64,000 bases of DNA from positions 1-64,000 of the forward strand of contig CALDSV010000016.1 in NCBI GenBank assembly GCA_937924475.1. The letters are read 5' to 3'. This DNA comes from an uncultured bacterium (GTDB lineage: Bacteria; Nitrospirota; Thermodesulfovibrionia; Thermodesulfovibrionales; Thermodesulfovibrionaceae). Of this stretch, positions 29,435 to 38,888 are shown one piece after another (positions within the stretch are counted from its first letter, which is position 1; every line of letters begins with the position of its first letter). The position numbers and the translations under genes were made by a program. The notes below the pieces were generated by a model. The model searched no databases and was not told where the DNA came from. It worked only from the letters and a program-made list of their open reading frames with translations.

Positions 29435-30007
29435 TTACCTAAACAGAGCGTTTATCTCTGTGCCGCTTCTTTCCTTTTGGTTGTTATTCATATTACAGTC
29501 GTCATTCTTAGGATTTCCGTCTAAACTTATATCAGGATCATAGACAATGATAACTTTATAGGATGGAGGGAATTCGCCTTCTGAAGGAGAAGAAGCATCC
29601 CATTGGCGTTCATAAGTTACTGTTACTTCCTGCCCAGGATTTAGATTTTGAAATTTTTTACGTGCCACAAGTTTACTTGTTCCACCCATAGGACCTTCAT
29701 ATAAAAAAACTTCCTGTTGATTGGGTCCTGAAATATAAGACTCCATTCCTATGTTTTTCACTACACCTGTTATCCTTACCTTACCTGAAAATTGACTTGT
29801 CCTTGAAACAATAGAAAAGTCAATTCTCTGAACTGCAGGATCAGGACATTTTTTTATTGGAATTGGTTTAATTTGTTTTGCCTTATCATCAATGGGCGAT
29901 TTAAGTTGATCCTTTGGTTGCAGTGGTGTTTCTGCATAAACACAGGGTAGAAGAAATAGTGCAAAGATTAATCCTAAAAAAATAGTTAAAAAAGTTAACT
30001 TTTTCAT
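29435..30007 (-). CDS. Secreted protein with a CARDB-like domain
   Basis: 190 residues. The signal peptide (LTFLTIFLGLIFALFLLPCV, then YA|ET) is followed by a Pro/Lys-rich linker and a beta-rich domain: FSGKVRITGVVKNIGMESYI, then NLNPGQEVTVTYERQW, which resembles CARDB (cell-adhesion-related) domains. The C-terminus SLDGNPKNDDCNMNNN looks like a calcium-type or flexible tail. It is the last gene of the sigma/anti-sigma cluster. The function is unknown; surface adhesion or binding is inference. Confidence 0.75.
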   Translation of the reverse strand: MKKLTFLTIFLGLIFALFLLPCVYAETPLQPKDQLKSPIDDKAKQIKPIPIKKCPDPAVQRIDFSIVSRTSQFSGKVRITGVVKNIGMESYISGPNQQEVFLYEGPMGGTSKLVARKKFQNLNPGQEVTVTYERQWDASSPSEGEFPPSYKVIIVYDPDISLDGNPKNDDCNMNNNQKERSGTEINALFR

Positions 30008-30019
30008 TCCTCTCTCCTT

Positions 30020-30436
30020 TCATTGACTTTTTCTTTTGAAATAATAGCCAGGTGCAGTTATTCTTATCTTGTCAACAAATATAGGTGGTCTATAAAAAGC
30101 ATCTCTACACTCTGGAAGCTGTGTTGCAATATAAATTATTAAATGATATTCACCGGTAGTAGGATTAATAGATGAAGAAGCTTCTTGATTGACTAAACAA
30201 TTGGTTGGCATAATACTACCAACTAACTCTCTTGTATTAGCCGTTACTTTTGCTTCCGCAGGTAATGGTAAAACAGAATTATCGGGACCTGTGATTTTAC
30301 CATAGACATCAAAGTGCCCAATAGAGGGGTAGGGTGTTTGTGAAGGTGGATGAGCAAAAAGGGAATTATTGAAAATTAATAAAACCGCTACAATAAGGAT
30401 TAACTTAAAATAAAACTTAATTTCTACTGCTTTCAT
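30020..30436 (-). CDS. Small secreted protein of unknown function
   Basis: 138 residues from the ATG at 30436, which follows GAGGAGG. A signal peptide (FKLILIVAVLLIFNNSLFA) leads to a small beta-rich domain with IGHFDVYGKITGPDNSVLPL and AKVTANTRELVG, like carboxypeptidase-regulatory or Ig-like folds of surface proteins. Two cysteines in the mature part (NCLVN and ECRDA) may pair. It lies 12 bp before the CARDB-like gene. The function is not known. Confidence 0.7.
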   Translation of the reverse strand: MKAVEIKFYFKLILIVAVLLIFNNSLFAHPPSQTPYPSIGHFDVYGKITGPDNSVLPLPAEAKVTANTRELVGSIMPTNCLVNQEASSSINPTTGEYHLIIYIATQLPECRDAFYRPPIFVDKIRITAPGYYFKRKSQ

Positions 30437-30455
30437 TTGTCCTCCTCTTAATTTT

Positions 30456-30764
30456 TTACTTTCTCTGTAAGTCAAGAATTTTTACTCCTATGAAATCAAT
30501 ATTAATGAATTCTCGGCTTTTGGCATGTAGTATACCTTCAAAATCAATGTTTCTGAACTCTCTGTTTTTTACTGTAGGAGGTGGTTGCTGTTTAGGGATG
30601 TTTTCATTAACCTTTGGTGGAAGCGGTGAAGGAGATTGTTGTTTTTGTAGATTTTCATTAATAGTTGGTTGTTTAAGGTTCTTTAAAGGCTCAGCATTAC
30701 TATCTGTTGCAATGATAAAAACAATCAATAAAGAAACACATAAAAAAATTAATTTTTCTTTCAA
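30456..30764 (-). CDS. Small exported proline-rich protein with an internal repeat
   Basis: 102 residues. The start is TTG at 30764, decided by GGAGGAGGTG 4-5 bases upstream; no ATG is available. The signal peptide (LIFLCVSLLIVFIIATDSNA) is followed by a Gln/Pro-rich linker with a repeated NENLQKQQSP / NENIPKQQPP unit. A second near-duplicate is NREFRNIDFEGI / SREFINIDFIGV. It looks like a small surface or periplasmic protein. No family is recognised. Confidence 0.65.
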   Translation of the reverse strand: MKEKLIFLCVSLLIVFIIATDSNAEPLKNLKQPTINENLQKQQSPSPLPPKVNENIPKQQPPPTVKNREFRNIDFEGILHAKSREFINIDFIGVKILDLQRK

Positions 30765-30857
30765 TATTCACCTCCTCCTTTTTTATTTTTGAGACTTCCT
30801 TTTCTGTGCCACCTACCATTAAATCTAAATCAAAAATCTTAACTTTACAAGTTAACA

Positions 30858-30886
30858 ATAAGTATGTTTTCACCTTCAAATTGTTC
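30858..30886 (-). promoter_or_regulatory. Candidate ECF-type promoter inside the cluster
   Basis: On the minus strand GAAC (30886-30883) is followed 19 bases later by ACTTAT (30863-30858). The upstream context AAAAAATTTTTTGAACAA is identical over 18 bases to that of the candidate at 37686. It lies between the subtilase gene and the small proline-rich gene and could drive the last three genes. The -10 assignment is tentative. Confidence 0.4.
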
Positions 30887-30896
30887 AAAAAATTTT

Positions 30897-33002
30897 TTAC
30901 TCCCTTAAAGATATTCCCAAAATCTCCTCTTCCCATTTACATAAATCACCTTTGAAGGAGGGAAGATTTTTTCTATCACCCTTTTGAATGTATAATGCTA
31001 AAAGTCCGCTCACATAAGCAGAAGAAAGTGAGGTGCCTGAAATGAAATTGTGTCTATTATCTGGAAAAGTGGTAATTATTTTTTCAGCTGGAGCTAAAAC
31101 TTTTGCTTTATTAACAATATCCTTAAAAGGATAGGGGTTTTCCTTTTCATCCATTCCTCCCACTGAAATTACATCTGGATGAGAAGCAGGAAAAGTGATT
31201 GAATTTCCAATTATTGATAAAGGCACAACTATAAAAATTCCTCTCTGAACTGCTTTGTCAATTAGGGAACTTAAAAGCCTATCATAATTTAATGAACCAA
31301 AGCTCATATTGATAACTCTAACATTTCTTTTAATTGCCTCATCCAGTGCTTTTAGAATATTAGAACTCTCACATAGCCCCTTAGCTGTATCACCTATCTG
31401 AGTACATGCCCGAAAAGAATAAATTTCAGCCTCTGGAGCAACTCCTGCTATTCCAAAACCATTAATACTTGCTCCAATTACACCTGCAACAGCTGTTCCG
31501 TGAATCTCTTTTTTATAGGTTTCTGCTCTGACAAAATTTTTTGAAAGGACAACCCTTTCCTTCAAATCCCTGTGCTCATAATCTACTCCTGTATCAATGA
31601 CTGCCACCTTAACACCTTTACCTTTATAAAAGTTATGTATTTTTTCAATTTTCATAATGTCAAGGGCGTACTGAAACTTTCTCAATGGTTCTGAAAGGGT
31701 TTGAAATACAAAATTAGGTTGTGCAAGAATAACTTTTTCTTCAGATTTTATCTGTTCTATCTTATATAAGATGTTTTCATCACACCTAAATAAAACAATC
31801 ACTGTATTTAGAGTCTCTAAATTAAAAAATTCAATAATCTCCAATCCATATTTGCCCTTTAATTTTTCAATAAAATCCTTAGAAAAGTCAGTCGTTGAAA
31901 GAGCTATAATAATATGTCCCGGAATAAAACTCTGGGTCCTGAAAGAAAACTTCCACAGATCGCTTTCACCTACTGAATTGTTCTTTTCATCAAAACCTAT
32001 TACTCTCCAGTAATAAGTTTTTCCCTGTTGAAAAATTTTCTTTACAATAAAATCTGGCAAATTATAGTAAGTTTCCTTTGTATAGGCAGAAAAAATAGGC
32101 TTGGAATCTCTGTTTTCAAAAAATTGAACCAGATATATCATTGTTCCATCAAGGTTTTCCCAGATGAATTTCTGAGAAGCATAGTCAAATTCTGAATTAT
32201 TTTGAGGAGATAAAAGGCTTATCTTCAAAAATTCCTTTACTTCCTCTGATCTTACAAAATAAATGGCAGAAGGTAAAGGAATTTCAACAGATGGATTTGT
32301 AATGACAAATCTAACTATGTGTGTTCCTGTTTCAAAGGTAGGAAGAGCTGGGATATCAGGTGTTTGAAAAGTAACTGTTTTCCCATAGGTTATATGCTGA
32401 TTTACATGTGACAGTATTCTTCCATCCACTTCCCAATAACCTCTAAGAAGTCCAGAACCTGTGAATTTAATATCGGCAAAGGCTTTAAGGCCTTTATAAT
32501 TCTTTGGAACAGTAATCTCCGCACGACGATTTTCAAAATAAAGCTCTATTCTTTTTATATCAAACTCAGCAGCCGCTTCTGTTGTAATATAAAAAATTAA
32601 AGAGACAGATGGTGAATATGTTGAAAAGCAGCTTTGATCTGAAAAATTTCTTCTAAATTCGATTTTATTTTCCCTTATTTTTATTGCTCTTTCTATAACG
32701 CTTACAGGTATATTTAACACTTCTACTGCCGTGGCAAAATTACTATTGCCTGCTACATTTATAGTGATTGTTTTTTGAACAGTGCCAATTATAGTATTTC
32801 CAACCACAAATTCCCCTAAATTTGACTTTGCATAACATGGAGGAGGATAATCAGGATTTGTTAATTTGTAATTTAATGTGACTGTATTTGTTTGACCACG
32901 AGGTATATTTGTCTTACTTGCCGTAACCGTTACTCCTGCATAAGATATTGCCTGAATAAATATTAATGAAACAACTATAATCAGAAAAATTATTTTTCTC
33001 AT
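30897..33002 (-). CDS. Secreted subtilisin-like serine protease (S8)
   Basis: 701 residues. A signal peptide covers about 1-22. Residues 23-250 are beta-rich and unassigned, and 255-355 look like a fibronectin type III module (KTYYWRVIGFDEKNN). About 358-433 resembles a subtilase propeptide, ending in VILAQPNF. The peptidase domain follows with D470 in VAVIDTGVD, H501 in HGTAVAG, the oxyanion asparagine N600 and S658 in SGTSLSSAY. The triad is complete, so it should be active. It sits among exported proteins controlled, by position, by an ECF sigma/anti-sigma pair, and may process or shed them. Confidence 0.9.
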   Translation of the reverse strand: MRKIIFLIIVVSLIFIQAISYAGVTVTASKTNIPRGQTNTVTLNYKLTNPDYPPPCYAKSNLGEFVVGNTIIGTVQKTITINVAGNSNFATAVEVLNIPVSVIERAIKIRENKIEFRRNFSDQSCFSTYSPSVSLIFYITTEAAAEFDIKRIELYFENRRAEITVPKNYKGLKAFADIKFTGSGLLRGYWEVDGRILSHVNQHITYGKTVTFQTPDIPALPTFETGTHIVRFVITNPSVEIPLPSAIYFVRSEEVKEFLKISLLSPQNNSEFDYASQKFIWENLDGTMIYLVQFFENRDSKPIFSAYTKETYYNLPDFIVKKIFQQGKTYYWRVIGFDEKNNSVGESDLWKFSFRTQSFIPGHIIIALSTTDFSKDFIEKLKGKYGLEIIEFFNLETLNTVIVLFRCDENILYKIEQIKSEEKVILAQPNFVFQTLSEPLRKFQYALDIMKIEKIHNFYKGKGVKVAVIDTGVDYEHRDLKERVVLSKNFVRAETYKKEIHGTAVAGVIGASINGFGIAGVAPEAEIYSFRACTQIGDTAKGLCESSNILKALDEAIKRNVRVINMSFGSLNYDRLLSSLIDKAVQRGIFIVVPLSIIGNSITFPASHPDVISVGGMDEKENPYPFKDIVNKAKVLAPAEKIITTFPDNRHNFISGTSLSSAYVSGLLALYIQKGDRKNLPSFKGDLCKWEEEILGISLRE

Positions 33003-33014
33003 ACATACTCCTCC

Positions 33015-34940
33015 TTAAAATGAAAATGGCATATTTGTAGTAAATACAAGATAAAGCACAAATTCATCCCTATCTGAAAGGGAATTTATCTTATCGGTTA
33101 TTTTTGAATAAGTTGCTTTTAAGGCTATAACAGGTTTTGCATAGTCCTTGACAAATTTCCCAAGATCATAGGCAAGTTGAACTGTTCCATTTAAGTTTCT
33201 TGTATTGGTTGAGCCATCATTTGCCTTTGTAATTGTATAAGTTCCTGCTATATCAAAAGTAGCTCTCTGATTCAAAAATTTGGTTCTCAAATCAAGATTT
33301 GTAGTATAAGTATCAGTTCTTATACCTGTAAGCTTTATTTTTGATTGATTAAGTGAAAAACTTGTACTAAAAGAAAAGTTAACATCAGTATAAACAGGAG
33401 TGAGAGTATATGTTATAGAGGTCGTATCATTATTCGCCTCTGTTTTATCATTCAAGAAAGAATAAGCTGTTGTAAAACCTATGTTTATTTTATCCTTTAC
33501 GTAGTTAATCCTCCCTGAGATAGTATCGGTTTCTATATTTATTTTGTTAGTTTCTTCTGGTTCTTTAGTGCTTTTCTGAATTGATTTTTGGTAACTTAAT
33601 CCCAAAGGAAGCTCTGGTATTTTATTAAAGGAATAATCCAAAGCCATTTGAGTATTATATATTCTTGGAAAAATTTCATCGCCTCTTACATTATCGTTAT
33701 ATCTTGAAAAAGATAAATTCAATGAATGCCAATCCCAGTTAGCTCCACCTCTTAAACTATATCCTTGACGGTCTTTTTGAATAGTGTTTCCCACTATCTG
33801 ATAATCTCTTCCTATGTATTCATACATGGCTTCATAGTTATACTTGTCTATTGCGCCATAAATCTTGGCTCTGTATGCCTTATCACTATCTTTAGCAAAT
33901 TCGTCAGAAGTATCAGGATCATATTTGGAAAAATCAATTTCAAAATCTGTATTTAATTTGTTTTCAAAAAAATTTGAATTTACCAAAAAACCCAAGACAT
34001 CTCCTTGTCTATTGCCGCCAAAAGAAGAAATACCAAATCCTGTTGATGGTTCACCACCCGTTACATAAATGGTTTTAAACTCCATCTTTTTATCAAAAAG
34101 CTTTAAGCCTGCTGATAAACCCATTATATGGTCATGGTTTGAAGTTTCTATTCCTGTTCCGCCTCTTGAACCATATATAGCTTCACTTTTTACTGTAAAG
34201 GCATTAAGCTGAAATATATCGTATTCAATATTAAATAAGCCTCCCTTGCGACTAAGCCCTGAAATAGTATAGGGGGTTTCAGTTATTTGTATATCTCCAA
34301 TGCTTGTTTTTGCTTTAAACAAATCTTTTGTATATGTTCCTGTCAAAATCCAATTAATAATGTCATAACCCTTCTTCTGTGGTGGTGCAAGGGGCTCACT
34401 CTGATCAAAATATCTCAGATTTGTATTAAATGTAAACTCCCATGTTTGATTTTTTAATTTAGTATCGGAACTTAAATTTCCCTCTATCTTTGAATAGGGG
34501 AGATTCCCAAGTGTATCAGATTTTTTAAGGACTCCCTCATAAATTATGATTGCATTATTATTTGACCAGGCTTCATTAAAGACTTCCGTATGTTTAGTTT
34601 GGAAGGATAAAGTCTTTTCAATTTGATTATTCTCATTATCTTTAGCTGAAATAGTCAATGTATGAGAACCCGGAGAAACTACCATAAAGGGTTTAAACTC
34701 AAATCCTCTTTCAGTGAAAATAACTAATTGAGTAATATCTGTTCCATCAAAAAGAACAACGATTGTTTCTTTCTTAACTTTTTCATCAAACTCCACTTTA
34801 ATATTAGGCTTCTTTGATATAATTTCTGAGCCTTCTTGAGGATATAGGACTTTGAATAATTCTTTTTTCATCTCTGATGCGGATAAAGGAACATGAAAAA
34901 AAATGATTATTAAAGAACTTATAAGAACAAGGAAAACCAT
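33015..34940 (-). CDS. Predicted outer-membrane beta-barrel protein
   Basis: 641 residues from the ATG at 34940, which has GGAGGGGG just before it; the longer frame to 35000 has no logic. A signal peptide (VFLVLISSLIIIFFHVPLSA) is followed by an Ig-like domain (VLYPQEGSEIISKKPNIKVE). The rest has many alternating hydrophobic/polar strands of 10-14 residues ending at a C-terminal phenylalanine (TTNMPFSF), as in proteins folded by the BAM machinery. I do not recognise a porin or receptor family; no TonB box or plug is clear. It may anchor or export the neighbouring surface proteins. Confidence 0.75.
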   Translation of the reverse strand: MVFLVLISSLIIIFFHVPLSASEMKKELFKVLYPQEGSEIISKKPNIKVEFDEKVKKETIVVLFDGTDITQLVIFTERGFEFKPFMVVSPGSHTLTISAKDNENNQIEKTLSFQTKHTEVFNEAWSNNNAIIIYEGVLKKSDTLGNLPYSKIEGNLSSDTKLKNQTWEFTFNTNLRYFDQSEPLAPPQKKGYDIINWILTGTYTKDLFKAKTSIGDIQITETPYTISGLSRKGGLFNIEYDIFQLNAFTVKSEAIYGSRGGTGIETSNHDHIMGLSAGLKLFDKKMEFKTIYVTGGEPSTGFGISSFGGNRQGDVLGFLVNSNFFENKLNTDFEIDFSKYDPDTSDEFAKDSDKAYRAKIYGAIDKYNYEAMYEYIGRDYQIVGNTIQKDRQGYSLRGGANWDWHSLNLSFSRYNDNVRGDEIFPRIYNTQMALDYSFNKIPELPLGLSYQKSIQKSTKEPEETNKINIETDTISGRINYVKDKINIGFTTAYSFLNDKTEANNDTTSITYTLTPVYTDVNFSFSTSFSLNQSKIKLTGIRTDTYTTNLDLRTKFLNQRATFDIAGTYTITKANDGSTNTRNLNGTVQLAYDLGKFVKDYAKPVIALKATYSKITDKINSLSDRDEFVLYLVFTTNMPFSF

Positions 34941-35039
34941 TTGCACCCCCTCCCCCTTAATTTTTTTATTGGTTATCTTTGAGCACAAATGGTTTTCCAA
35001 TTAACATTTATACCTTGGACAACCTTCTAAATTATATAT

Positions 35040-36680
35040 TTATTTAGGCAAATATTCAATCAAAATGTTATCTCCCTCAGACTTTACATCTACTATGCGG
35101 TAAATTTTTAGAAGAGAATTTATTCTACTGTTAATCGCTTCTTCGATTTTCCCTCTGATGTTATCACTCATCAAAAGTTCTTTTAATCTCCTTGAAATTT
35201 CATTCTTTATTTTTTCATCAACATCTCTTTCAAGAGAGTCTGGTAAGATTTTATATCCTCCCACAAATCTTCCACTTACTTCAGGTGAAATCTCAATATC
35301 AATATAAGAAAGTCTTTTGTTTCTTAAGCCAAATTTGAAATAAATTGTAAAATTAAACTTAGTTAAATCATAATCTGGAGCTGACCAGTCATAGTAAAGC
35401 CCTTGTGTATACTCATATCCTTTTATTTCTGTCCCCTCTGTTTCAAAATTAATCTCAAATTTTAATTTACCTTTACTCACTGAAAATGCCGTCTTCCCAT
35501 CCCATTTGGCATTTAAATCGTGAACATAACCTTTGTAGTCATAAGTTATAAGGCTACCTTTAGTGTATTCAAACCGAGGGAGGGAAAAATTCTGACGATT
35601 GTTCATGATTTCAATATAACAATCGTTTTTTTTGAAATAGGGATCTCCCGGCGTACAAGGATAACTATCCTCTGTCAATCTTTGTCTTTTTTGAGTATAA
35701 GGAGTATCACTATGGGTTGGTGTGCCTGCTCCGCATTCAGTTCCAAAGTAGTTATTGAGCCTTATGGATCCTGAAATTAATCCTCCAAAGATAGCTATAA
35801 GTTCATTATTAATGATAAATTTTTCCGTTTCCCATGTATGTTCATAATAGTCTACATCTTTTTCAAGAGGCATCCTATATTTAGGCTCTATGCTTACGTT
35901 TATCATTATTCCTGATCCACTTAATGCTCTCTCTTTTTCAAATAAAGTAATCTCTCCTAACTGGACTTGTTCTCCAGCTTTAATTGTTAAATTAGGAGTA
36001 GTAAATCTTCCTGAAGCTAAGGATGGACCAGAGAGATTATTAATCACTGCATATGCAACCTCTATTGGACTTGATACAAAATCTCCATCTCCAATATTTT
36101 TAACAAGAAATTTTATCTTCATTGTTTTCTGATCAACTAAGGGCTTCATATTCTCTATTCTTGGTTTCTTAACATTAATGCTCACCACCTTGGATTTTTG
36201 TAACATACTCTGTTGAGGTCTACCATATTTATCAAAATCTAATTTCACTGGGTCTGAAGCTATTATCTGCAATGTATATGTCTCACTTTTAAAGGGTTTT
36301 ATTGTTTTAGAACCTTCAATTGTAAAGTTTTCATTTCTATAGTCTGTTCTTGAAAGGGGAATTATGCCAACATCTGGTTTTATTTCAAGTCTTAAATTTG
36401 AAACATTATACCCATTTATTGTCCATCTAAGAGTGACTTCATCTCCATAATTTATAGTATTTGATGAAGTTGAAAAGTTAATGATATTTAGACTACTTTG
36501 TAAGGCTGGTTTAATACCTTTTAAATCTTCTGGTTGAGACTTAGGTGATACCGGAGGATTTTGAGAAGGAGTAGAAGAAGGTTGCATTTTAGGACTCTGA
36601 ATTCTATCAGTCTGACAATATGCTGAGGCTATAAAACAAAGAAAATAAATTGAAATTAATAAAACCCTCAATCCCTCCAT
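35040..36680 (-). CDS. Large secreted protein of unknown function
   Basis: 546 residues. The signal peptide (VLLISIYFLCFIASAYCQ) is followed by a Pro/Ser-rich linker. The next domain (LNIINFSTSSNTINYGDEVT) resembles Ig/CARDB folds common in surface proteins. A further CARDB-like piece is MKIKFLVKNIGDGDFVSSPI. The second half (EYTQGLYYDWSAPDYD and onward) has no match I recognise and ends in a charged helical part (IKNEISRRLKELLMSD). The family is not identified. It belongs to the cluster by orientation and close spacing. Confidence 0.75.
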   Translation of the reverse strand: MEGLRVLLISIYFLCFIASAYCQTDRIQSPKMQPSSTPSQNPPVSPKSQPEDLKGIKPALQSSLNIINFSTSSNTINYGDEVTLRWTINGYNVSNLRLEIKPDVGIIPLSRTDYRNENFTIEGSKTIKPFKSETYTLQIIASDPVKLDFDKYGRPQQSMLQKSKVVSINVKKPRIENMKPLVDQKTMKIKFLVKNIGDGDFVSSPIEVAYAVINNLSGPSLASGRFTTPNLTIKAGEQVQLGEITLFEKERALSGSGIMINVSIEPKYRMPLEKDVDYYEHTWETEKFIINNELIAIFGGLISGSIRLNNYFGTECGAGTPTHSDTPYTQKRQRLTEDSYPCTPGDPYFKKNDCYIEIMNNRQNFSLPRFEYTKGSLITYDYKGYVHDLNAKWDGKTAFSVSKGKLKFEINFETEGTEIKGYEYTQGLYYDWSAPDYDLTKFNFTIYFKFGLRNKRLSYIDIEISPEVSGRFVGGYKILPDSLERDVDEKIKNEISRRLKELLMSDNIRGKIEEAINSRINSLLKIYRIVDVKSEGDNILIEYLPK

Positions 36681-36703
36681 CTTAAAATCCTCATTTAATA
36701 TTG

Positions 36704-37633
36704 TTATCTCCTTATATGCATAATAAATTCATTGTTTCCCTTATTTTCAGTTGCACTATCAGTAGAAAATTTTATTTTTACCTCCACTCCAATATCAGGT
36801 GGCTGTGGTGTTACTTTAAAAAGATAGTTTACACCACATTGACTTATAGCATTCGTGCTAAAAATTTCATAAGGAGGAATTGACACATTTCTACATGTTA
36901 TCTGCATCGCCGGTATTTCAAGTTTACTATCAAAAACATTATTAGAATTTATCAGAGAAAGATAGGGTGGTGGAACTCTTTTCCAGGTATTACCATGAGC
37001 ATAATCCTTAAACCATACTTCAAAATGAATTGTCCCATTGAAACTCCTGTTACCCTTGTTCTGGATTTCGGCATAATAAGAATATTCATTGCTATTCTTT
37101 TTTAAATCAACGATGACAAGATCAATCCCTACCATACCGAGTTTTTCAAAAATCCGACTTAATTGATTGTTTGATTCCACTGATTCATTAATTACATTTG
37201 TAATATCAAGCCTAACAATAACTTCTGTCCTATTTCCCTCTGTTTTTTTACCTGTATTCCATATTACCTCTCCTCCGGGACGGCATAATGCTCTGGAAGA
37301 ATCAATTGTGGCAAGGGGAATTTTTTGTCCTTTTTTATTAATCTCTAATAAAATTAAAGCATATTTATCAGGGCTTACATAAGCTGATTCATTTATGTAT
37401 CCCCTTCCAATATTTCTTATCTTAACTATGATATTGCCTGCGCTATCTTCAAAAATCTCTGAGACAACTAAATCAGGAAGTAATTCTTGCATCTGATCTA
37501 CTTTTGTTGGGGGTGCTTCTCCTTTAGGCTTATGAGTCATAGGTCCGCTTTCAGCAATAGCAAAAGAAGCAAAAAGAAAAGACAGGAAAATTACAAAAAC
37601 TTTAATAGAAATAAAAGCAAAATTTTTTCTCAT
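36704..37633 (-). CDS. Secreted protein with tandem CARDB-like domains
   Basis: 309 residues from the ATG at 37633, preceded by GGAGGA; the frame upstream is not needed. The signal peptide ends about FASFAIA|ES. The first domain has the CARDB signature LLPDLVVSEIFEDSAGNIIV with KIRNIGRGYI. A second begins GIDLVIVDLKKNSNEYSYYA with EIQNKGNRSFNG. CARDB domains mediate adhesion or matrix binding in exported proteins. It is the first structural gene after the anti-sigma gene, and the candidate ECF promoter at 37658-37686 lies directly upstream. Confidence 0.8.
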   Translation of the reverse strand: MRKNFAFISIKVFVIFLSFLFASFAIAESGPMTHKPKGEAPPTKVDQMQELLPDLVVSEIFEDSAGNIIVKIRNIGRGYINESAYVSPDKYALILLEINKKGQKIPLATIDSSRALCRPGGEVIWNTGKKTEGNRTEVIVRLDITNVINESVESNNQLSRIFEKLGMVGIDLVIVDLKKNSNEYSYYAEIQNKGNRSFNGTIHFEVWFKDYAHGNTWKRVPPPYLSLINSNNVFDSKLEIPAMQITCRNVSIPPYEIFSTNAISQCGVNYLFKVTPQPPDIGVEVKIKFSTDSATENKGNNEFIMHIRR

Positions 37634-37657
37634 TTGTTCCTCCAATATTTTTTTTAA

Positions 37658-37686
37658 ATTAGTCAATTTAGAATAGAATTTTGTTC
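37658..37686 (-). promoter_or_regulatory. Candidate ECF-type promoter for the exported-protein genes
   Basis: GAAC (37686-37683) is followed 19 bases later by ACTAAT (37663-37658), close to the GAAC...TCTAA layout of ECF promoters. It is preceded by AAAAAATTTTTT. The start codon of the CARDB gene lies 25 bases further down, with its own GGAGGA. It lies between the anti-sigma gene and its first putative target, which is where a target promoter would be expected. Confidence 0.5.
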
Positions 37687-37704
37687 AAAAAATTTTTTGG
37701 AAAT

Positions 37705-38313
37705 TTATTTGGCAGGTTCAGCAAGGACAATAATATTACTTTGTCTTAATATATTTAAAATCTGATCCTTTTTTTCTCTGTCTTTTATTCCAACTACATA
37801 AAGACCTGTTCTATAAGGACCACCAATTATTCTTCCATCAATTTTTGTTAAAAGTTCTCTAATATCCCTTTCTTTTGCATTCTCTTTAAAGACCACATTG
37901 ATTACATAAGATGTCTCAGCCCTAATATCTGTGGTAGATAGGGTTTGATATCCATATTTTAAATTTAAGATATAAAAAAACATGACAATTATAACCAAAA
38001 ATTGGAAAATAATAAAGCCAAAAGAAAATTCTGGCTTCAAGCTTATAAAATTCCATATTTTGTTTTGGATCCTCTCCCTGCCTTCAATTCTTCTGATTAT
38101 TTTTGGATATATATTGTAAGAAGGTTCTGGTAAATCACTCTTTATTTTTTCATAGCCTTTTTTAACAGTATCCCAAAATTTCAATTCTTCTTGAAGTGCT
38201 GATTCAGATTGTAATATTTTTTCAATTTCCTTAGCTTTGTCATTTTCAATTAATCTCTTAGAATATAAAGGCAAAATTACCTTAATCTCTTCCAATCTTT
38301 TAGAAAAAGGCAT
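37705..38313 (-). CDS. Membrane anti-sigma factor
   Basis: 202 residues. A cytoplasmic N-terminal part of about 95 residues is helical and lacks the HxxxCxxC zinc motif of ZAS anti-sigma domains. One membrane helix follows (FGFIIFQFLVIIVMFFYI, about 98-117). An external domain of about 75 residues reads SYVINVVFKENAKERDIREL ... GRIIGGPYRTGLYVVGI ... IIVLAEPAK. Its predicted strand/helix order resembles the propeptide-like region of the subtilase in the same cluster. The gene overlaps the sigma gene by 14 bp, the usual sigma/anti-sigma coupling. The identification rests on position plus topology. Confidence 0.8.
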   Translation of the reverse strand: MPFSKRLEEIKVILPLYSKRLIENDKAKEIEKILQSESALQEELKFWDTVKKGYEKIKSDLPEPSYNIYPKIIRRIEGRERIQNKIWNFISLKPEFSFGFIIFQFLVIIVMFFYILNLKYGYQTLSTTDIRAETSYVINVVFKENAKERDIRELLTKIDGRIIGGPYRTGLYVVGIKDREKKDQILNILRQSNIIVLAEPAK

Positions 38314-38848
38314 CTTTATTTACCCCCATATTCTCAAGAATTTCTCTTAACTTTTCCTTAGCATAAAAAATTCTTGTTTTCACTGTATTTAAAGGAATAT
38401 CCAGTATTTTTGCCACTTCTTCATAAGTTAATTCATGCATAAATATTAAATCTAAAACCTCTCTATGCTTTATTGGTAGTTTTTTCAATGCCATTGACAT
38501 AAAGTAATCAGCTTCATTTTCTGCTGTTAATCTGAATTGTTCAGCTTTTTGACTTTCTGAGTTTGTTAATTCATCATGTCTATAATCTTTCTTTTTTATT
38601 TCATTCATTGTTAAATTCCGAGCAATTCCAAAAATCCAAGTTAATGCTTTTGATTCTCCTCTAAATTTCTTAGCTGATAACCAAACCTGCAGGTAGGTTT
38701 CAATCATCAGATCCTCTGCAGTTTCAAGATTGTTAACAAAACTGTAGATATATCGATAAACACTTTTAAATGTGAACTCATAAAGCCTCCTGAAAGCCTC
38801 TTCATCACCTTTTGAAATTTGTTTTATCAGTTTTTGTTCTTCATCCAT
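38300..38848 (-). CDS. ECF-family RNA polymerase sigma factor
   Basis: 182 residues with only regions 2 and 4. Region 2 is EEAFRRLYEFTFKSVYRYIY with SFVNNLETAEDLMIETYLQV and the DNA-melting stretch ALTWIFGIARNLTMNEIKKK. Region 4 is LKKLPIKHREVLDLIFMHEL followed by TYEEVAKILDIPLNTVKTRI, a helix-turn-helix. It heads a run of nine minus-strand genes. The immediate neighbour is its probable anti-sigma factor. An extracytoplasmic signal is expected to release it and switch on the exported-protein genes. Confidence 0.95.
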   Translation of the reverse strand: MDEEQKLIKQISKGDEEAFRRLYEFTFKSVYRYIYSFVNNLETAEDLMIETYLQVWLSAKKFRGESKALTWIFGIARNLTMNEIKKKDYRHDELTNSESQKAEQFRLTAENEADYFMSMALKKLPIKHREVLDLIFMHELTYEEVAKILDIPLNTVKTRIFYAKEKLREILENMGVNKDAFF

Positions 38849-38875
38849 TAGTAATGTTATCCTTTTAAAATGTTC
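38847..38875 (-). promoter_or_regulatory. Third copy of the GAAC-N19-ACTAAT motif, overlapping the sigma start codon
   Basis: TTTTTTGAACA with GAAC at 38875-38872 and ACTAAT at 38852-38847, same spacing as the other two copies. Here the second half overlaps the ATG of the sigma gene (38848-38846). A transcript started from it would begin inside the gene, so it may be a binding site or a chance match in AT-rich DNA, and not a normal autoregulatory promoter. Confidence 0.3.
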
Positions 38876-38888
38876 AAAAAACTATAAG

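Follow-up and report, generated by a model that had tools for sequence, protein, structure and literature searches.

An ECF sigma/anti-sigma pair and its candidate regulon of exported proteins: a possible protease-coupled switch

Organization of the locus

Nine genes on the minus strand at positions 29435-38848 of the window (the whole 64,000-nucleotide stretch of DNA analysed) raise the question of whether the sigma factor and membrane anti-sigma factor at their head control the exported proteins encoded behind them, and what would release that control. A sequence-only reading had proposed the nine same-strand ORFs, all of which are present there, and their regulation by the sigma/anti-sigma pair, which is supported below by a shared promoter of fixed spacing that tracks the sigma gene and by the retention of gene order. 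The set adjoins mutS2 and a TIGR00725-like gene upstream and runs toward a convergent histidine kinase gene; no tRNA lies near it and no Rfam RNA was found.

Family assignment of the nine ORFs was performed with Pfam and NCBIfam. The first ORF is an ECF sigma factor with sigma regions 2 and 4 only, matched above cut-off by PF04542, PF04545/PF08281 and TIGR02937, and is followed by an anti-sigma factor with one transmembrane segment recognized by eye, in keeping with the proposed head of the block. The sixth is an S8 subtilase, as claimed (4e-34), and the third a weak CARDB match; no Pfam or NCBIfam family was obtained for the remaining ORFs of the set. The CARDB match lies in 36704-37666 and falls just below cut-off (21.4 vs 22.7 bits). 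A second CARDB-like protein had been read in the last gene, the product of which is indeed exported, but its CARDB likeness is without Pfam support. Signal peptides, said to be carried by all seven downstream products, were seen by eye in 7/7 (for example ..LSA-SEMK, ..SYA-GVTV, ..SNA-EPLK, ..LFA-HPPS and ..VYA-ETPL). Some starts were revised: ATG 37633 for the CARDB gene, ATG 34940 for the barrel gene (641 aa), and ATG 30436 as the better start of a 151-aa ORF, giving 138 aa. The 102-aa repeat gene starts with TTG at 30764 behind a strong ribosome site, and its homologues also have a TTG start. A defence-system reading was dropped, the PADLOC matches being to generic subtilase and IetS models only.

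Table 1. Features of the sigma-headed gene set, in the direction of transcription.
Feature	Position	Strand	Basis
ECF sigma factor, 182 aa	38300..38848	-	Sigma70_r2/r4, TIGR02937 above cut-off
Candidate sigma-dependent promoter TTTTGAACATTTTAAAAGGATAACATTACT, before sigma gene	38850..38879	-	same layout in four same-genus genomes, G033, G399
Anti-sigma factor, 202 aa	37705..38313	-	domain matches of relatives, TM by eye
Candidate promoter TTTTGAACAAAATTCTATTCTAAATTGACT, before CARDB gene	37661..37690	-	same position in G013, G005, G004
Exported CARDB-like protein, 310 aa	36704..37633	-	sub-cut-off CARDB match, signal peptide
Exported 546-aa protein	35040..36680	-	no Pfam family; decayed in G013
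Predicted outer-membrane barrel, 641 aa, C-terminal Phe	33018..34940	-	sequence, conservation
Exported protein with S8 subtilase domain	30897..33002	-	Peptidase_S8
Candidate promoter TTTTGAACAATTTGAAGGTGAAAACATACT, before repeat gene	30861..30890	-	sequence pattern, conservation
Exported repeat protein, 102 aa	30456..30764	-	two 16-aa repeats KSREFxNIDF
Small exported protein, 138 aa	30020..30436	-	signal peptide
Exported 190-aa protein	29435..30007	-	signal peptide

Conservation among relatives

With the anti-sigma factor as bait, its gene was found in five same-genus genomes (window included) and in two other members of the order, among 61 genomes searched. Comparison of gene order, suggested with the sequence-only reading as a check, found that four same-genus species share the order and three order-level genomes the core, so that the nine-gene grouping is beyond chance. 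The order in G013, G005 and G004, mapped by tblastn and ORF maps, is that of the window, behind mutS2. In G008 the set occupies a different chromosomal place, beside rpiB/glyA-like genes. The G005 and G008 sets are split by contig ends, with the rest of the genes on other contigs. G033, G043 and G399 show the order sigma, anti-sigma, barrel, subtilase as far as their contigs reach, and these four genes are the conserved core.

The exported genes lying after the anti-sigma gene and before the barrel, as well as those downstream of the subtilase, differ among relatives, and include a 647-aa protein with an HEFTH motif in G004 and a 298-aa protein in G005. The 546-aa gene is collapsed in G013 (L009:7122-7790) by a deletion and a frameshift; either this gene is dispensable or the collapse is an assembly fault.

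A candidate promoter that tracks the sigma gene

A candidate bipartite promoter, TTTTTTGAACA-N17-WACT, is found before each of the sigma, CARDB and repeat genes. These three promoters, together with the prodomain-like domain of the anti-sigma factor and its tie to proteases (see below), had been missed by the sequence-only reading. Across relatives the GAAC-to-WACT distance is 18 bases with few exceptions, and the candidate TTGAAC-N18-(T/A/G)ACT, with an AAC-containing -35, is kept in the set and its homologues and tracks the sigma gene.

Sixteen same-genus genomes were scanned with a strict pattern; the CARDB site of the window reads GACT and is left out of this count. The five sigma-bearing genomes gave 21 matches, 17 of them upstream of set genes or their homologues, and the eleven other genomes 14; the reversed control gave 90 over all sixteen. 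Under a simple placement model the chance of such promoter placement is at most 1.7e-6 per genome. The bare pattern TTTTTGAACN{16,19}WACT yielded 5 matches in the genome vs 9 for the reversed control, one extra match falling inside an apparent dnaE coding sequence. This count is not significant, and the case for the promoter is therefore carried by position and conservation. A scan for sigma-70 promoters gave no more matches than shuffled sequences.

The repeat gene has the promoter in all five sigma-bearing genomes, including G008 and G005, where it lies on a separate contig. The sigma-less genomes G014 and G002 keep the repeat gene without the promoter, and no anti-sigma or barrel was found in them. 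In G008 the set lies in several pieces with a promoter on each, the sites on contigs C3, C5, C14 and C78 being upstream of set genes; G005 has three further sites before exported proteins, among them the repeat gene, a beta-helix protein and CARDB proteins. Since a promoter of fixed spacing and conserved position tracks the sigma gene, which is our strongest evidence and is comparative in nature, the prediction that the sigma factor drives an exported-protein regulon is well supported.

The candidate -10 of the sigma gene (window 38849-38880) ends one base before its ATG in the window, and one or two bases before it in each of the five genus members as well as G033 and G399 (seven genomes). 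RNA from that site would thus begin inside the sigma ORF. Either translation of the sigma factor requires RNA that starts further upstream, its own site feeding the anti-sigma factor and the cargo and not sigma itself, or the -10 has been misread.

A predicted prodomain-like domain in the anti-sigma factor

The anti-sigma factor is laid out as a degenerate zf-HC2-type domain, one transmembrane segment (about 98-118) and a Fervidolysin_NPro-like periplasmic domain (about 135-200). Within the family, PF22148 matched 6/7 members (best 3.7e-5) and zf-HC2 2/7. The window protein itself gave no Pfam match above cut-off and no PF22148 match, and the zinc ligands of the zf-HC2 type were absent from it by eye. 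The family matches point to the predicted periplasmic domain being a member of the subtilase-prodomain (Fervidolysin_NPro-like) family. With thin alignments, hhalign did not align the anti-sigma factor with the operon's own subtilase, and searches of PDB sequences with the anti-sigma and barrel profiles gave no match. AlphaFold models built from two-row alignments were too poor for use (pLDDT 42 for the anti-sigma factor and 27 for the barrel).

A profile search of 396 genomes of the phylum found more anti-sigma factors with the same two parts beside ECF sigma factors. The NPro-type anti-sigma gene neighbours an S8 peptidase gene in G285, G252:C67 and G087, which are independent sigma/anti-sigma/S8 trios, and a caspase C14 gene with DUF4384 in nine loci tested together and in G174, the caspase gene being divergent, on the other side of the sigma gene, in some of those loci. 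The neighbour is a CHAT gene in G252:C4; G065 has a CARDB protein and no protease was seen; in G263 an NPro-containing protein lies beside an S8 protein and no sigma factor was flagged. By tblastn against 72,556 plasmid records, three near-full-length relatives of the anti-sigma factor were obtained, all alphaproteobacterial (NZ_CP110112.1, AP027331.1 and NZ_CP136863.1; loci L154, L155 and L156). Sigma and S8 peptidase genes are close by in 3/3, and a Gcw_chp/TorF-type porin gene follows the trio in 2/3; two of the three plasmid proteins have zf-HC2 and a sub-threshold NPro match, the third neither. It appears from these loci that NPro-type anti-sigma genes in the rest of the phylum and on plasmids of alphaproteobacteria nearly always adjoin a protease gene, be it S8, caspase or CHAT.

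In other families of the phylum, caspase (C14)-DUF4384 genes lie by the NPro anti-sigma/ECF pair at L101, L102, L103, L106, L107, L113-L116 and L118, and a TPR-CHAT protein is encoded by such a pair at L105. Proteins of 750 aa matched by the anti-sigma profile were first taken as subtilases; of these, the single one tested proved to be a GspD secretin (L109:3398-5635, G024) with a C-terminal Fervidolysin_NPro-like domain (PF22148, 1.1e-12). Similar profile matches lie at the ends of proteins of about 750 aa at L110, L111 and L112.

Subtilase and barrel

The subtilase protein comprises an N-terminal Ig-type part (about 115-350), a weak NPro-like prodomain (356-430) and the S8 domain (461-675), with an intact triad (D470, H501, S658). 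The oxyanion Asn is missing from its canonical place in the subtilases of the window, G013, G004 and G005 and kept in those of G008, G033 and G399; alignment of the window protein to subtilisin places a GN about three residues after the canonical position. Displacement of this Asn in four members of the genus may mean a weak protease.

Among the exported genes, the barrel shows the highest conservation (82% to G004, 40-45% at order level). The barrel profile also found full-length relatives without sigma in G350, G038, G399:C43 and G383, and a broken one in G270. In these sigma-less loci the gene after the barrel encodes the subtilase's Ig-type N-terminal part without S8, and no sigma pair is near. 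The S8 domain is present in 7/7 sigma-linked sets where the gene is visible vs 0/5 sigma-less barrel loci, a small sample of related species in which three of the seven sets were pieced together over contig ends by inference. The basic pair would seem to be the barrel and its Ig-type partner, with sigma, anti-sigma and S8 domain occurring together. Family f29 gave weak, partial barrel matches (E about 1e-11), which were kept apart from this system.

Comparison with known systems

In cell-surface signalling of the Fec type, an outer-membrane protein, an anti-sigma factor and an ECF sigma factor are encoded in one locus. The present set has the same three components, but no TonB-receptor, plug or FecR match was obtained by Pfam in the window. 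In the RpoE-RseA-DegS/RseP and RsiW-type switches a membrane anti-sigma factor is removed by stepwise proteolysis (models in PMC10028731), and similar release is expected here; the difference is that the likely protease is a secreted subtilase of the same set and that the anti-sigma factor has a domain of the subtilase-prodomain type. Csx29-Csx30-CASP-sigma (PMC10028731) and CalpL-CalpT (PMC12751052) are trios of protease, anti-sigma and ECF sigma. CASP-sigma has several sites within its own locus, as is predicted for the sigma factor described here. Those trios are cytoplasmic and CRISPR-triggered, whereas this set has a membrane anti-sigma factor, a barrel and exported cargo. The ECF54 group is reported to have subtilase, carboxypeptidase and CHAT proteins in its genetic context and is discussed as being without anti-sigma factors (PMC8999054), a description from which the present set is apart by its membrane anti-sigma gene.

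The sequence-only reading had not recognized a described system. The arrangement itself (ECF with S8 family peptidase and anti-sigma, or with CARDB) was not found described in the literature searched, subscription papers being mostly outside it, which is weak evidence of novelty. Protease-cut anti-sigma factors and ECF-subtilase neighbourhoods are already known, and the arrangement is seen as a new variation on them.

A proposed switch and its alternatives

With somewhat better than even confidence, we favour an ECF switch that is coupled to a protease and governs a surface-protein regulon. In the resting state, the sigma factor would be held by the one-TM anti-sigma factor. The periplasmic domain of the latter has the signature of the subtilase-prodomain family, so that its most likely docking site is the S8 domain of the secreted protein encoded in the set. 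There it could serve as a substrate, the cleavage of which would start regulated proteolysis, or as a pseudo-prodomain sensing whether the protease is still in the periplasm. Freed sigma factor would start transcription at the predicted TTTTTTGAACA-N17-WACT sites before its own, the CARDB and the repeat genes, so that anti-sigma factor, barrel, subtilase and small exported proteins would be made together. Display or export of the small repeat and Ig-like proteins at the surface is probably the task of the barrel and its Ig-type partner. A surface-assembly or adhesion role, as proposed in the sequence-only reading, would be compatible with the signal peptides, the barrel, the Ig/CARDB modules and the 16-aa repeat protein. 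The resemblance of the inhibitor's predicted outer domain to the part that docks on proteases of the co-encoded kind gives a hint of a self-sensing loop on the surface of the cell.

Such a switch would suggest one way in which the state of a secreted protease could be read by an anti-sigma factor, and the set yields a sequence-defined regulon (sigma, promoter and targets) for exported proteins without known function. As the layout is found again in the phylum and on plasmids of alphaproteobacteria, a single experiment could account for many loci. A tentative and rather doubtful extension is that these are widespread ECF switches in which a prodomain mimic in the anti-sigma factor gauges a dedicated secreted protease, the cell thereby measuring its surface-protein export, and that in this family the sigma-gene promoter overlaps the start codon and produces RNA encoding anti-sigma and cargo, not sigma.

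The sigma regulon could be real and the anti-sigma factor be under a general envelope-stress pathway (DegS/RseP-like), with the NPro-like domain sensing only misfolded or unassembled exports and the subtilase being cargo that processes surface proteins. The missing canonical oxyanion Asn in four genus members agrees with this, as does the presence of NPro-type anti-sigma genes beside non-subtilase partners; indeed the domain may bind other partners, as the caspase and CHAT neighbours and the occurrence in GspD allow. We nevertheless consider this explanation unlikely, since the S8 domain tracks sigma and anti-sigma and the trios recur in another phylum. Less likely still would be a secretion or maturation machine, in which the small repeat and CARDB proteins leave through the barrel, the subtilase trims them and the sigma factor responds to the state of assembly rather than to docking. 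No exported part is better conserved than the barrel, which has its Ig-type partner next to it even without S8, and the small repeat protein varies in repeat number, all of which would suit such a machine, but the barrel was not recognized as a known exporter and repeat genes persist in G014 and G002 without a barrel.

That an ECF pair merely stands in front of unrelated exported genes, transcribed from promoters on the mutS2 side, is very improbable: the set does lie directly behind mutS2 in four species, but the cassette has moved as a unit in G008, and the shared promoter is present with the sigma gene and absent without it, on separate contigs as well.

Repeat number

The repeat protein contains a stretch rich in Q and P, and its 16-aa unit is present in 2 to 6 copies, with two in the window and four to six in relatives. 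The low number in the window could be due to assembly collapse, the genome being in 80 contigs. Between species, the 48-bp tandem units of the gene vary from 2 to 6 (window 30456-30764; L009:12063-12563).
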